This document shows, piece after piece, positions 17,074-21,123 of a stretch of 21,153 nucleotides of DNA. This stretch comes from a virus. The DNA is taken from the IMG/VR virus record IMGVR_UViG_3300046535_001274, positions 1-21,153 of that record. The stretch is one strand, 5' to 3'. A model generated the notes under the pieces. That model did not search any database, had not been told where the DNA came from, and worked only from the letters and a program-made list of their open reading frames with translations. Each line of letters begins with the position of its first letter. Position 1 is the first letter of the stretch. A program made the position numbers and the translations under genes.

Positions 17074-17319
17074 CTAGGCCGGCGCCGGCGTGGCCGGTGC
17101 GGGTATGTCGGTTTCGCCGAACAGCCACGCGACCGAGACGCCGAGCGCGTCGGCGAACAGTTCGGCCTCTACTACGGTGATCGGCGCCGTGCCGGCGAGC
17201 CGGCGCGAAACGTTCTGTTGCGTGACGCCGATTCGCTCGGCGAGCGCGGCCTGCGGGATCCGCTGCCGCGCTGCTTCTTCCTTTACGCGCTGAGCTACAG
17301 CAGCGGGTGTTTTTCTCAT
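17074..17319 (-). CDS. XRE/Cro-CI family HTH regulator, leftward (Cro-like position)
   Basis: The protein has 81 residues, with ATG at 17319. No ribosome-binding site precedes it, and the candidate -10 (TATTGT) ends 7 bp upstream, so the mRNA is probably leaderless. The HTH occupies ~22-43 (IPQAALAERIGVTQQNVSRR), followed by helices ending SVAWLFGE and a Pro/Ala tail. The recognition helix TQQNVSRR resembles TQGSFSRR of the divergent regulator at 17551, suggesting related operators. As the first leftward gene before the early run it holds the place of a Cro-type regulator, but size and position alone do not say which of the two maintains lysogeny. Confidence 0.88.
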   Translation of the reverse strand: MRKTPAAVAQRVKEEAARQRIPQAALAERIGVTQQNVSRRLAGTAPITVVEAELFADALGVSVAWLFGETDIPAPATPAPA

Positions 17320-17326
17320 AGGCGAG

Positions 17327-17356
17327 ACAATACGCGCTAATCGAGTGCGGATCGAA
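17327..17356 (-). promoter_or_regulatory. leftward early promoter with operator dyad in the spacer
   Basis: On the minus strand TTCGAT (17356-17351), an 18-bp spacer, and TATTGT (17332-17327) lie 7 bp from the ATG at 17319. The spacer carries the degenerate dyad CACTCG-N5-CGCGTA. The -10 begins at the TA that closes the right half-site, the same geometry as at 18067-18096 and 18865-18894. Confidence 0.55.
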
Positions 17357-17417
17357 TTATGTGCATAGTTTCCCGCGTGTCGCGTTTTTTCTGTACCGTG
17401 CGGTATAGCTACGCGTG

Positions 17418-17512
17418 TACTCACTTTTGGGCCCGATTAGGTACTCGATTACTTGGTTCCTACTCGCCGCAATACTCACATTTTGCATACAGGTACGGGT
17501 GTTATAACTCAC
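17418..17512 (+). repeat. TACTC half-site cluster in the divergent control region
   Basis: TACTCA at 17418 and 17473, TACTCG at 17442 and 17461, and AACTCAC at 17506 lie in the gap between the divergent regulators. They repeat in one orientation at uneven spacing. They may be regulator half-sites or a second operator type. The whole gap is A/T-richer than the window. Confidence 0.4.
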
Positions 17513-17542
17513 TGCTTGCTGTACGCGCTCGGCGTGTATACG
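17513..17542 (+). promoter_or_regulatory. rightward regulator promoter with operator dyad
   Basis: The dyad TACGCG (17522-17527), CTCGG, CGTGTA (17533-17538) is the same as at 18073 and 18871. A -10-like TATACG starts at the TA of the right half-site (17537-17542), and the ATG at 17551 would be at or next to the transcription start. The -35 is weak: TGCTTG at the matching offset, or TTGCTG at 17516. Confidence 0.5.
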
Positions 17543-17550
17543 CTCGTTTA

Positions 17551-17994
17551 ATGACGACTCCACCGGCAGCCGGCCATAACGGCGAATTTGAAACCCTGTC
17601 CCAAGCAGTCGCCCGCCGCCTAAGAGGCCGTATGGGTGAACTCCAACTCAAGGGAACTGAGGTAGCCGCGGCTATCGGCATGACTCAAGGCTCGTTTTCG
17701 CGCCGCTACACCGGCTCGGCAGCGTGGGAGCTTGACGAACTCGAACGGCTCGAATCCGCGACCGGGATCCGGATTACCTATCTACTCGGCCTCGAGGACG
17801 CGAGCGGCGAGTCGACGATCACCGGCGTTATCTCCCGCATAGAGGCCGCCGACCAGCAACAGCGGCAGCAGCCAGACAGCGGCACGCTGCCGCCGGCGCC
17901 GCCAGGGCCGCCCCAGCTGCAGTACCTAGACCCGGCCCCGATCCGCTACGAACATTCGCTCTGGCCCGGATCCCCGCGGCAGCAGATCGCCTAG
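17551..17994 (+). CDS. XRE-family HTH regulator, candidate immunity repressor
   Basis: The protein has 147 residues, with ATG at 17551. No Shine-Dalgarno is present (CGCTCGTTTA precedes it) and the -10 is 8 bp away, suggesting a leaderless mRNA, as known for lambda cI. The HTH lies at ~36-55 (EVAAAIGMTQGSFSRR), then helices (ELDELERLESATGIRITYLL). The C-terminal ~65 residues are Gln/Pro-rich with YEHSLWPGSP near the end, and show no recognisable LexA-type peptidase. It is transcribed away from the Cro-like gene, with dyads before it and before the downstream genes, and is followed by its own terminator. The repressor role is inferred from this layout. Confidence 0.85.
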   Translation: MTTPPAAGHNGEFETLSQAVARRLRGRMGELQLKGTEVAAAIGMTQGSFSRRYTGSAAWELDELERLESATGIRITYLLGLEDASGESTITGVISRIEAADQQQRQQPDSGTLPPAPPGPPQLQYLDPAPIRYEHSLWPGSPRQQIA

Positions 17995-18066: not shown

Positions 18067-18096
18067 TTGCATATCTACGCGCGCGGCGCGTAGAGT
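18067..18096 (+). promoter_or_regulatory. rightward promoter with full operator dyad
   Basis: TTGCAT (18067-18072), an 18-bp spacer, and TAGAGT (18091-18096). The spacer is ATC-TACGCG-CGCGG-CGCGTA, a near-perfect palindrome (TCTACGCGC GCG GCGCGTAGA). It shares the 15-bp block TTGCRTATCTACGCG with the site at 18865. It would drive the genes at 18141 and 18404. Confidence 0.65.
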
Positions 18097-18140: not shown

Positions 18141-18407
18141 ATGACCCAATCACAGCACCAGCCGGCGAGCGCCGAGGATCCGGCCGCCATGCTGGCCGTA
18201 CTCGAGGCCGAGAGCGCCGAAATCGCTAAACTCTCGGCCGAACGCGAGGCCGAGCGCGAGGCGGCCGGGATTACTCACCTTGCCGGAAACGTCGGGAACG
18301 CCGGGAATCAGCCCTACACCGGCGTATGCGGCGCCCGCGGCAGCATGACGACGATGCGCCGGCAGGCAACCTGCCCGGCGTGCCTCGCGCCGGCGGCCGC
18401 GCTGTGA
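18141..18407 (+). CDS. small protein with coiled-coil N-terminus and Cys-rich C-terminus
   Basis: The protein has 88 residues, with ATG at 18141 and GAGG 8 bp upstream. Residues 10-45 are a charged helix (MLAVLEAESAEIAKLSAERE). The C-terminal part has CGARGSMTTMRRQATCPAC: one Cys, then a C-X2-C pair, possibly a zinc site. I do not recognise a family. It is the first gene behind the dyad-controlled promoter at 18067 and overlaps the next gene (GTGA), so both may be expressed under repressor control, for example as immunity or exclusion factors; that is inference only. Confidence 0.7.
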   Translation: MTQSQHQPASAEDPAAMLAVLEAESAEIAKLSAEREAEREAAGITHLAGNVGNAGNQPYTGVCGARGSMTTMRRQATCPACLAPAAAL

Positions 18408-18592
18408 GCGCCGGCGAGCGCGGGCCGCTGCGGGCGTCTGAGAACGGCGTCACGCGTGCATCGTGGCCGTATTTCCTCGGCGCGCTGCAGTACACGATCG
18501 ACGAATCCGGCGTGATCGACGTCGAGGCATGGAACCGCTGTATCGAGACTGCCCGCGACCTCGCGGCAGAGCGTCCGTCAGACAACGTTTAG
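18404..18592 (+). CDS. 62-residue hypothetical protein
   Basis: GTG at 18404 overlaps the stop of the upstream gene (GTGA), which fixes start and coupling. The product has a compact aromatic core (ASWPYFLGALQYTIDESGVI) and a C-terminal helix (VEAWNRCIETARDLAAE). No motif is recognised. It is the second gene of the dyad-controlled rightward unit; the DUF4236 gene follows after 13 bp. Confidence 0.65.
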   Translation: MSAGERGPLRASENGVTRASWPYFLGALQYTIDESGVIDVEAWNRCIETARDLAAERPSDNV

Positions 18593-18605
18593 GGAGCTGG
18601 AAATT

Positions 18606-18812
18606 ATGGGTTGGATCTTTCGTAAGCGTGTGCAGCTTGGCAACGGTGCGGCGTTGAATGTGTCTAAGCGCGGTGTGAGCGTTTCTAAGCGTGTGGGCCC
18701 GGTGACTGTGAACAGTCGCGGCCGGGTGACGGTTCGGCTCGCTCCTGGGCTGTCCTGGCGTCTCGGCAGCGGCAGCAGCGGCCGGCGTAAGCGGCCGAAT
18801 CTGTTTGAGTAG
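18606..18812 (+). CDS. DUF4236 family small protein
   Basis: The protein has 68 residues, with ATG at 18606 and AGGGAG upstream. The first half follows the DUF4236 pattern closely: WIFRKRVQLGNGAALNVSKR, then GVSVSKRVGPVTVNSRGRVT and RLAPGLSWR, a run of basic short strands ending in GSGSSGRRKR. The family's function is not known. Codon use differs from the neighbours (many CGT, TCT, GTG and GCG codons), and there are no GGATCC, CTGCAG or CTCGAG sites within it, which suggests separate ancestry (a moron-like gene) or selection for expression. A strong terminator follows. Confidence 0.8.
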   Translation: MGWIFRKRVQLGNGAALNVSKRGVSVSKRVGPVTVNSRGRVTVRLAPGLSWRLGSGSSGRRKRPNLFE

Positions 18813-18828
18813 GGCCCCGGAACAACGG

Positions 18829-18866
18829 CAGCGGGCCGGCGTGATCAACACGCCGGCCCGCTGTTT
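18829..18866 (+). terminator. strong terminator after the DUF4236 gene
   Basis: A perfect 15-bp stem, CAGCGGGCCGGCGTG (18829-18843) and its complement (18849-18863), with a 5-nt loop ATCAA, is followed by TTT. It ends the rightward gene unit 16 bp after the stop codon. Confidence 0.85.
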
Positions 18867-18894
18867 GCGTATCTACGCGTTTCGCGTGTAGATT
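18865..18894 (+). promoter_or_regulatory. rightward promoter with operator dyad facing a noncoding segment
   Basis: TTGCGT (18865-18870), an 18-bp spacer, and TAGATT (18889-18894). The spacer holds ATC-TACGCG-TTTCG-CGTGTA. The layout is identical to 18067-18096, and it starts immediately after the terminator hairpin, yet no gene lies downstream on this strand. Confidence 0.6.
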
Positions 18895-18900
18895 CTTTTT

Positions 18901-19040
18901 GAACACGCCCGTAAAACGGCGATATCCCCCCGGCTCCAACCAGGGGGATATCTTGAAAATCATTCTTTGCGAATACAGAAAGCCTAGCAAACCGCTCCAA
19001 CGGATGCTAGGACCGTGGTAAGTGTCCAGAGCCACGTTTC
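18901..19040 (+). ncRNA. candidate small RNA with paired GCTCCAAC hairpin loops
   Basis: Downstream of the -10 at 18889 are three consecutive hairpins. The first has a GATATCCCCC stem (18921-18930 with 18943-18952). The second has CCTAGCA with TGCTAGG (18983-18989 with 19005-19011) plus an inner CCG/CGG. The third has CGTGG with CCACG (19014-19018 with 19032-19036). The first two show the same octamer GCTCCAAC in or at the edge of the loop (18933-18940 and 18994-19001). As RNA this offers CUCC, complementary to Shine-Dalgarno GGAG. The true 3' end is unclear; the next rightward terminator is at 19691. Confidence 0.4.
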
Positions 19041-19310
19041 CCGCTACGGCAGGATAAACACAAAAGACCAGGCCGCGAGAGCAGCCGATCCGGGTTAGAG
19101 CCGGTTCTATTGTCGAGTCTTGATCCAGACTGTTTCACCGGAGAGCGCGAGCCCCGGAATCGAAGTAGCGCCAGCAGTTACAGCCCCTCTAGCCGGAGAG
19201 CCAGAGATCAAGACATATGCCGCCGCTGCAGTGCCACTAACCCGCCTGCCAAGCTTGCACCCCTCAAGGTGCCCAACCGATACCGACCGTCCGACCGACG
19301 CGGTAACACA

Positions 19311-19338
19311 GCTTGCCTTGTTTCAAAGCAAGGCAAGC
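19311..19338. repeat. perfect 10-bp inverted repeat
   Basis: GCTTGCCTTG (19311-19320), loop TTTCAAAG, CAAGGCAAGC (19329-19338). No U-tract follows on either strand, so it is not a standard terminator; it may be an RNA structure or a protein-binding dyad. Confidence 0.6.
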
Positions 19339-19393
19339 CCCTGCCCTCCACCTCCCTACCTCCCTCTGCGGTGTGGGCAAAACAAGAGCAAAG

Positions 19394-19422
19394 ACAAAAG
19401 AAAACGGCTGCTAGAGCAGCCG
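19394..19422 (-). terminator. second leftward terminator after the lysis genes
   Basis: On the minus strand CGGCTGC, loop TCTA, GCAGCCG (19422-19405) is followed by TTTTCTTTTG. It backs up the stronger terminator at 19547-19587. Confidence 0.75.
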
Positions 19423-19546
19423 AGCCAGGCAGCCCGGCGGCAGGGTGAGACAAGAGCAGCCGGCGGCAGCTCGAGGCCGGCCAGAGAACGAAATGCGGTA
19501 GCGAGATTGCTCAAGTCTCACCAGCGCGCGGGAGTCTCACCAGGGC

Positions 19547-19587
19547 AAAAAAACAGCGGGCCCGGATCCATAAGGATCCGGGCCCGC
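19547..19587 (-). terminator. main leftward terminator of the lysis/late operon
   Basis: A perfect 14-bp stem (GCGGGCCCGGATCC with a 4-nt loop; arms 19556-19569 and 19574-19587). On the minus strand it is followed by TGTTTTTTT (A run at 19547-19553 on the + strand). It lies about 130 bp after the holin-like gene stop. Confidence 0.9.
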
Positions 19588-19690
19588 CAGCCTGCAGCGT
19601 TTCACACCGCTGCAAGCCACAAATAACCGGCGTGTATCCGGTCATCGGTAATCTCGAGATGCAACACTACGCGCCGGCCGCGATAGATGC

Positions 19691-19719
19691 CAGCCGGCGA
19701 GTAGCGGGCCGGCTGTTTT
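19691..19719 (+). terminator. rightward terminator abutting the holin-like gene
   Basis: An 8-bp stem CAGCCGGC (19691-19698) with GCCGGCTG (19708-19715) is followed by TTTTA. It overlaps the holin-like gene's stop codon on the opposite strand. It would stop rightward transcripts from 18865 before they enter the lysis genes antisense. Confidence 0.55.
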
Positions 19720-20344
19720 AGCTCGGCCGTGCGGGATCGACGAACGTCTCGGCCGGATCGTGAATCACCGGCTCGGCCGCCGGCGCGATCACCGGAGCAG
19801 CTGCAGCGGCCGGCAGGACTGTGCCGGGGATCGCTGCGGGCTGAAAGTAGGGTGTGTCGACCGGAGCGAACAGTTCCGGCGCCGCCGGCGCGATCACCGG
19901 AGCAGCTGCAGCGGCCGGCAGGACTGTGCCGGGGATCGCTGCGGGAGCCGGAGCCGGCGTTTCAAGCGTCACGCGGGCCGCGGGAGCGGCTGCGGGCTGT
20001 GAGGCCGGCAGAGCGGCCGGCAGCGGGTGATCAGCGGAGGATCCGAGGCTCTGGACAACTGCAGCGGCGCCGGTAGGATTCCAGAGCCCAAAGTGCATAC
20101 CGACCGCGACCAGGAATGACACCAGGGCCGCGAGCAGCGCGGCGATCAGATCGTACGGCTTGCCCGACTGCAGCGCGACCGCCAGCTGTGCCGCGAGCGA
20201 CGTCGAGACTGAGAGCGCCGCGAGCAGGATCGCCCGGCGGGCCGGGTGAGTGTCGCGGGTAGTGATCAGCCCGATCAGCAGCGGAAAAATTGTCGATGCG
20301 AGCAGCTGCAAGAGCTGGGCCGGTTCAACATGGATGAACAACAT
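19718..20344 (-). CDS. holin-like membrane protein with repeated Ala/Pro tail
   Basis: The protein has 208 residues. ATG at 20344 shares its A with the endolysin stop (TAATG). Three hydrophobic segments are visible: ~10-29 (QLLQLLASTIFPLLIGLITT), ~38-58 (AILLAALSVSTSLAAQLAVA) and ~65-86 (DLIAALLAALVSFLVAVGMH). The last ~115 residues are an Ala/Pro-rich tail with AAIPGTVLPAAAAAPVIAPA twice, encoded by a perfect 65-bp direct repeat. Position directly after an endolysin gene and the membrane topology support a holin, which opens the inner membrane at lysis. The tail is much longer than in classical holins. Confidence 0.75.
   Translation of the reverse strand: MLFIHVEPAQLLQLLASTIFPLLIGLITTRDTHPARRAILLAALSVSTSLAAQLAVALQSGKPYDLIAALLAALVSFLVAVGMHFGLWNPTGAAAVVQSLGSSADHPLPAALPASQPAAAPAARVTLETPAPAPAAIPGTVLPAAAAAPVIAPAAPELFAPVDTPYFQPAAIPGTVLPAAAAAPVIAPAAEPVIHDPAETFVDPARPS
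19776..19945 (-). repeat. 65-bp perfect direct repeat in the holin-like gene
   Basis: Positions 19776-19840 and 19881-19945 are identical (period 105 bp = 35 codons). They encode the duplicated Ala/Pro segment. The identity at DNA level suggests a recent duplication that keeps the frame. Confidence 0.95.
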
Positions 20345-21123
20345 TATTTGCCCCCTGCGGTAGTGGTAATGGTGGCGGCGACGTCGACGGGTGCCGGCAG
20401 CGGTGCGCCGTGAATCTCGGAGTGCAGAGCGGCCGTGATTTCATCGACTGCCGCGGCGAGCTTCTGCCGCTGATCGTCGATCTCGCGATCGCCGTTACCG
20501 TTGTCGACCGCCTGCTCGAATGTCTTGATATCCCACGCCGAGGCCGCGATCGCCTTAAGAATCGCGTTCGCCGCGGCGCCGACCTGGGCGCGGTTGTCCA
20601 GAATCGCCCGGTCAGTGTCCGTGTGAATCACGGTCTGAACAAACACGCGATCGTCATTATCAAGCTGTGCCATAATTCCGGCCTCCTGTAGTTGGGTGAT
20701 GCTTTGCGGTGAGAGCCCCAAGGGCCCGGCGCCCTCGAGGGAAATAACGGGATAGCCGGCGACGTCCTCAGTCCACCCGAGGTAGACCAGCTGCATCTTT
20801 CCCCACCGGGCGTAATAGGCGATCAGATCCTCGATATCCGGGTGATGGTGCGGCGTGCTTGTCAGATCCGAGGATGAATAGATCGACCCATCCGGCGCCT
20901 GCAGTGCGATATGGCCGTTCGGTTCGACGTCGATCGAGAAATACACCGGCGCCCACATACCGGCCGGAATGTTCCGGTCCCGGTGCTGTGAGGCCGATTT
21001 TTCCCATGCCTCCGTTGCGGATCCGTACCGGATCGGCAGGCCGAACGTCTCGCGGACGTACTCGAGGCAGTAGCCCGGCCGGCACGGCACGGCCGCGTTA
21101 GGTGTGATCAGCTGCGTAGCCAT
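20344..21123 (-). CDS. endolysin with CHAP/NlpC-P60-like peptidase domain
   Basis: The protein has 259 residues, with ATG at 21123 and GAAAGGCGGG upstream. Residues ~10-90 match a CHAP-like cysteine peptidase/amidase: RPGYCLEYVRETFG with candidate nucleophile C19, SATEAWEKS, MWAPVYFSID and NGHIALQAPDGSIYSS with H71 as the general base and nearby Asp residues. It would cut peptidoglycan peptides or amide bonds at the end of infection. Residues ~95-165 carry YPVISLEGAGPLGLSPQSIT. The C-terminus is helical and acidic (EIDDQRQKLAAAVDEITAAL), with no LysM, SH3 or PG-binding repeat that I can recognise. The holin-like gene follows directly. Confidence 0.82.
   Translation of the reverse strand: MATQLITPNAAVPCRPGYCLEYVRETFGLPIRYGSATEAWEKSASQHRDRNIPAGMWAPVYFSIDVEPNGHIALQAPDGSIYSSSDLTSTPHHHPDIEDLIAYYARWGKMQLVYLGWTEDVAGYPVISLEGAGPLGLSPQSITQLQEAGIMAQLDNDDRVFVQTVIHTDTDRAILDNRAQVGAAANAILKAIAASAWDIKTFEQAVDNGNGDREIDDQRQKLAAAVDEITAALHSEIHGAPLPAPVDVAATITTTAGGK

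Follow-up and report, generated by a model that had tools for sequence, protein, structure and literature searches.

What does a phage transcribe from a promoter that has zero conserved genes between it and the lysis genes? The question is raised at 18865–18894 of the window, a 21,153-bp fragment (IMG/VR virus record IMGVR_UViG_3300046535_001274). Leftward genes of the window encode virion and other functions, and a lysis region (holin and another gene) occupies the minus strand at 19718–21123. The C-terminal part of the holin gene holds a long direct repeat, GCGCGATCACCGGAGCAGCTGCAGCGGCCGGCAGG, in two copies (19770–19950). Two HTH regulators lie divergently, back to back around 17425–17550, and a short rightward operon (18141–18812), which includes a DUF4236 protein, has a perfect 15-bp inverted repeat at its end (Table 1). 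No Rep or integrase was found among the tested ORFs of this fragment, and no parABS was recognised by Pfam/PHROGs near the RNA described below, nor among the tested genes of JanetJ, Aoka and EvenBluerMoon.

Table 1 Features of the window from the regulator genes to the lysis-side terminator
Feature	Position	Strand	Basis
Cro/CI-type HTH regulator	17074–17424	−	HTH_3, E = 5.6e-9; PHROG repressor families
Second HTH repressor-like gene, start inferred at 17551	17551–17994	+	PHROG 2328, E = 1.4e-10
Second promoter with operator in spacer, ahead of operon 18141–18812	18067–18094	+	Direct repeat 79%; operator 1 mismatch
Terminator-like hairpin of a 15-bp inverted repeat, between operon 18141–18812 and the RNA gene it insulates	18829–18863	+	100% complementary (repeat search)
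Promoter: −35 TTGCGT, 18-nt spacer, −10 TAGATT; expected start near 18902	18865–18894	+	Sequence and conservation
Operator-like palindrome ATCTACGCG-N5-CGTGTAGAT (ATCTACRCG-N5-CGYGTAGAT) in promoter spacer	18871–18893		0 mismatches
Hairpin 1, loop GCTCCAAC at 18933–18940	18921–18952	+	Covariation, alignment A4
Hairpin 2, loop GCTCCAAC at 18994–19001	18983–19011	+	Sequence, relatives
Hairpin CCGG-GUUAGAG-CCGG, element common to mycobacteriophage origins	19090–19104	+	Covariation
Core outer helix, 5′ arm GTCTTGATC	19117–19125	+	Alignment A3, columns 8–16
Inner hairpin, GNRA tetraloop (GCGA in window, GCAA or GGAA in relatives)	19138–19157	+	Read from A3
Core outer helix, 3′ arm GATCAAGAC	19206–19214	+	Alignment A3, columns 121–129
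Conserved AUGCCGCC, then hairpin with loop GAGUAAU in most relatives	19217–19249	+	Alignments
Conserved motif GACCGACGCGGT	19293–19304	+	Alignments
3′ hairpin GCTTGCCTTG..CAAGGCAAGC, sequence varying among relatives	19311–19338	+	Repeat search, alignment
Conserved pyrimidine tract ending CTCCCTCTGCGGTG	19339–19373	+	Alignments
Hairpin then T-rich stretch, predicted leftward terminator	19405–19422	−	Hairpin conserved in relatives
16-bp leftward terminator behind lysis genes	19554–19589	−	

An earlier note on this DNA placed the promoter right behind a 15-bp terminator, and its sequence and the perfect repeat at 18829–18863 agree. A simple consensus promoter scan did not list 18865–18894; the support comes from relatives, the promoter being kept in loci L041 and L032 and in JanetJ, EvenBluerMoon and Aoka. 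The operator suggested there is borne out by the palindrome within the spacer, which is conserved in relatives. Another operator-like copy lies at 18073 of the window, equivalent sites occur in L032 and L041, and weaker versions are found near divergent HTH genes in JanetJ, EvenBluerMoon and Aoka.

Read from its alignments, the window from 18902 to ~19425 on the plus strand encodes one large structured RNA of roughly 500 nt. The promoter reads rightward into it, as the note had supposed; its stems are conserved, and it has no conserved ORF, since many alignment indels are not multiples of three. A protein in 19120–19626 was rejected (no Pfam match, frame broken by indels in relatives). The small RNA of two hairpins that had been envisaged holds as to a structured noncoding RNA, but those hairpins form only the 5′ end of the ~500-nt molecule. 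Similarly, a hairpin with TTTT is present at ~19691–19719, where a rightward terminator had been placed (19691), but the conserved unit ends near 19373–19425.

Covariation was tested for individually named helices only, rather than for a full-length aligned structure. The outer helix (alignment A3) is paired in 99.1% of cells with double changes at 9/9 pairs, scoring 1.098 for covariation against 0.292 when shuffled and ≤0.19 in slid versions. The 19090–19104 hairpin occurs in 10 distinct versions, 100% paired, with both-side changes at 4/4 pairs, and hairpin 1 (alignment A4) is paired in 96.7% of cells with both-side changes at three pairs. The reverse complement folds with lower energy, which counts against a plus-strand RNA; this and C–A mismatches in hairpin 1 hinted at the minus strand, but the plus strand is favoured by the outer helix (on the plus strand, nine G–U cells and a single non-standard, A–C, cell), the GNRA loops and the promoter direction. 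The pyrimidine tract (19339–19373) is likely to lie near the functional 3′ end. Because this tract is conserved before 19373, the opposite strand is G-rich (by reading, GAGGGAGGTAGGGAGGTGGAGGGCAGGGG) and might, hypothetically, form an RNA–DNA or G-rich structure. The leftward terminator at 19405–19422 would keep out antisense transcription. No Rfam family model matched the RNA (GOLLD, ROOL, OLE, introns, riboswitches).

At the 5′ end, the two hairpins of unlike stem and identical loop octamer that the note described are both present and conserved in relatives. The octamer, GCTCCAAC, occurs in the window only in these loops; in hairpin 2 its ends sit within a small inner stem. Because at least two octamer copies arose in 11/100 shuffles, the repeat alone is weak evidence; conservation makes it strong. 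Both loops carry an octamer in six window-clade phages, as GCTCCAAC in two (the window and L041) and as GCGCCAAC, twice each, in four (L032, JanetJ, EvenBluerMoon and Aoka), and the Kocuria plasmid pKPAL3 has GCGCCAAC in two hairpins whose stems differ from those of the window. A covariation check in related phages, proposed beforehand, gave covariation in hairpin 1 and a loop octamer conserved in the window clade and pKPAL3. Compared across these relatives, the octamer is a real feature that changes jointly in both loops, and the twin GCKCCAAC hairpins are probably a 5′ module acting as a protein- or RNA-docking site. Not every member keeps the octamer in both loops: a single copy is present in Ryan, GCTCGAAC, GTTCCCGC or GCTACCAAC in others, and none in pHiyo8-2.

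By blastn, 18865–19397 is ~75% identical in Arthrobacter phages JanetJ, EvenBluerMoon and Aoka, and the Ryan group shares the 3′ part of the RNA. Profile searches unite one family comprising the six window-clade phages, the Ryan/Zaheer group, L036, L039, L257, pHiyo8-2 and pKPAL3, with Gordonia phage Daredevil and cluster A mycobacteriophages as more distant members. Covariance model R1 found one further supported member, L318, in 396 genomes; a loose genome pattern scan and one viral scan returned mostly chance matches, but gave L144 and L257. Matches of the pKPAL3 RNA by blastn in 297 genomes were short only, without profile support, and were rejected.

The Daredevil copy (L314, 2775–3190; 90-kb genome) lies slightly upstream of the terminase gene, a setting unlike the others. 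The 14.7-kb pHiyo8-2 record (L177, AP014721.1) appears to consist of ~2.7 tandem copies of a 5.5-kb unit and contains the RNA twice, perhaps as a multimer or an assembly artefact. L144 (47–587, minus strand), on a 187-kb Metallococcus carri contig, adjoins the 3′ end of a tRNA gene, a setting that suggests an integrated element carrying an origin RNA of its own. L318, an AT-rich member at ~1480–1990 in a 2.3-Mb genome (G131), preserves the outer helix as GCCTTGTG/CACAAGGC. L012, L009 and L257 have one or two tyrosine integrases, with the RNA directly upstream of the integrase gene. Tyrosine recombinases co-occur with the RNA in Ryan, Zaheer, L257 and pKPAL3, so it does not simply take the place of integration; neither an integrase nor a Rep protein is annotated in the complete genomes of JanetJ and Aoka. 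Downstream of the RNA in these two phages (L005/L007; JanetJ 27–30, Aoka 27–28) is a small operon with a MerR-like HTH protein, occupying the place of parAB in cluster A phages; it is possibly a partition system.

The strongest functional evidence comes from pKPAL3, because homology there is direct. In their passages on this small Kocuria palustris plasmid, whose derived vectors reach ~20 copies per cell, Toda and Itoh (2017, PMC5711781) report that no replication gene was found, that replication required no ORF and that Region I (2123–2626) and Region II (2721–2854) are both essential for replication in Kocuria; the passages on Regions I/II mention no RNA. The homologue of the window RNA is at 2121–2727 of the record and coincides with Region I. 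Its profile match is full length (E = 8.9e-70, pKPAL3 itself being in the profile), and independent blastn matches to pKPAL3 come from plasmid and phage relatives (2e-7 and 3e-5). Beyond full-length homology, the two share the twin hairpins (with GCGCCAAC loops in pKPAL3), the core helix and the GNRA hairpin, whereas upstream pKPAL3 has Region II and the window a phage operator promoter. No par gene is annotated in the pKPAL3 record.

The other mapped origins are those of cluster A mycobacteriophages. Wetzel et al. (2020, PMC7157519) showed that a noncoding RNA is transcribed from these regions in the direction opposite to parA, that stable lysogeny depends on them and that they are sufficient for replication. 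As ~600 bp replicate without parABS (PMC7157519) and no par gene is annotated in pKPAL3, we take parABS to accompany the cluster A systems rather than to belong to the origin. We connect the window RNA to these phages through iterated profiles, the order of motifs and a single hairpin that covaries. L047, a distant member, has matches in the noncoding DNA next to parAB of cluster A mycobacteriophages and of Daredevil; the iterated profiles reached L047 (5.5e-5) and Daredevil (1.1e-4) and, after them, the origin of LadyBird (1.4e-5) and AnnaL29 (2.4e-4). LadyBird falls to E = 0.0016 once the AT-rich L318 is added. With the wider profile shuffled decoys never reached E = 2, and an apparent background match proved to be L144, the M. 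carri contig with the same motifs. The reciprocal profile placed Arthrobacter loci at E = 1.8 or worse, though in the right places, and a covariance model built on the 142-nt core recovered members from Arthrobacter and Kocuria alone, missing the mycobacteriophage RNAs and L047. Matches to the Daredevil RNA were obtained in 125 Mycobacterium phage records; in Alma, LadyBird and Gladiator they fall inside published origins (PMC7157519).

Three motifs occur in the same order over 175–215 nt in Steamy, LadyBird, Daredevil, L047, L144 and four Arthrobacter-type loci, compared with 0/1800 shuffles and 0/286 background loci; the window itself does not fit the strict pattern, nor do RedRock, AnnaL29 and Refuge. 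The GUYAGA hairpin covaries across the Arthrobacter-type and mycobacteriophage groups and, together with motif order, supports common descent of both. Mycobacteriophage homologues lie on the transcribed strand, the published direction (opposite to parA) being that of the strand predicted here; in the window, which has no parA, promoter, G–U bias and homologous strand agree on direction. Like the window RNA, the origins of RedRock, LadyBird, Alma and Gladiator comprise a noncoding RNA of ~500–600 bp without a Rep protein (PMC7157519); cluster A origins also lie near immunity/maintenance genes, agree with the predicted transcribed strand of the window and have a co-linear GUYAGA hairpin, GAGUAAU hairpin, GACCGACG and CUCCCUC tract. 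They differ in lying beside parABS and in a 5′ domain and 142-nt core unlike those of the window, whose clade has the twin GCKCCAAC loops and the operator in the promoter spacer. At window 19492–19543, AATGCGGTAGCGAGATTGCTC resembles an element, AACGCGGTAGCGGGGTAGC, located close to where mycobacteriophage origins have their 3′ end; behind AATGCGGTAGCGAGATTGCTC are two direct repeats, AGTCTCACCAG (19514–19543), and the first part of this stretch is also present in L041 and L032.

Homology to experimentally mapped origins argues for a replication role, and the window RNA very probably serves as the origin from which the phage replicates as a plasmid-like prophage. The part of this reading established in our analysis comprises conservation, covariation, the plus strand and homology to two mapped Rep-free origins; from these we infer that the window phage, too, needs the RNA region to replicate autonomously.

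It is improbable that the RNA has some other ornate function (a GOLLD/ROOL-like scaffold or cage, defence or host takeover), linked to origins by location only. Like GOLLD and ROOL it is large, structured and phage-borne, an octamer shared by two loops would be suited to kissing interactions or to docking of a protein, and some carriers also hold integrases; but it differs from them in matching no Rfam model and in having homologues with mapped replication phenotypes, in the pKPAL3 minimal replicon (PMC5711781) and the required region of cluster A phages (PMC7157519). Selection on RNA is favoured by the compensatory changes with their one-stranded bias in G–U pairs, by the GNRA loops and by the presence of a promoter for this unit, which leaves little room for a conserved DNA element (origin, partition or attachment site) that is transcribed incidentally, even though origins, parS and attP are also located here in temperate phages and the short direct repeats lie downstream. 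Least credible is the trans-acting phage sRNA of the earlier note, whose CUCC loops would pair with Shine–Dalgarno GGAG and block phage or host mRNAs: the loops are real, exposed and repeated, and their octamer changes jointly between relatives, but CUCC is not conserved (GCGCC in most relatives, as GCGCCAAC; GCTCGAAC, GTTCCCGC or no such loop in others), conservation extends ~500 nt and goes furthest in the 3′ core rather than the loops, and the target search that had been proposed found no perfect octamer complement on the mRNA strand of the 21-kb window or the complete JanetJ and Aoka genomes (it occurs there only opposite the loops themselves and at a single antisense position), so the mechanism fails.

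As a replication origin, the folded RNA may stay on or invade its template, its 3′ end priming DNA synthesis by host enzymes in the style of ColE1 RNA II. That the RNA would prime or recruit host replication enzymes has been proposed for mycobacteriophages by ColE1 analogy (PMC7157519). Since the same operator lies in another promoter near the immunity region, repressor level would set the amount of RNA made and couple immunity to copy number; we put forward such copy-number control as a hypothesis. ColE1 RNA II is analogous as a structured transcript that starts replication without a plasmid Rep protein; the likeness is one of function, no sequence similarity was seen and no antisense RNA I was identified here. 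The R-loop segment of RNA II is G-rich, whereas the 3′ tract of the window RNA is pyrimidine-rich instead. More tentatively, and with rather less confidence than in the origin itself, one ancient origin-RNA family with a shared core fold may span actinobacterial phages, plasmids and chromosomal elements, the window-clade promoter being switched by a phage operator so that repressor, in place of antisense RNA, would set prophage copy number.

In the literature found, cluster A mycobacteriophages are the one group for which RNA-based extrachromosomal prophage origins have been described, with no structure given, and the Rep-less replicon of Kocuria has had no explanation. This RNA was not found described in Arthrobacter phages, nor the Kocuria replicon linked to mycobacteriophage origins, in a search largely outside subscription journals, such that earlier reports are possible. 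One covarying RNA joining both systems offers a fold, conserved motifs and mutants with which to approach how an RNA starts DNA replication. It also brings Arthrobacter phages and other Actinobacteria into the group with RNA-based origins, and suggests vectors for these hosts that need no Rep.
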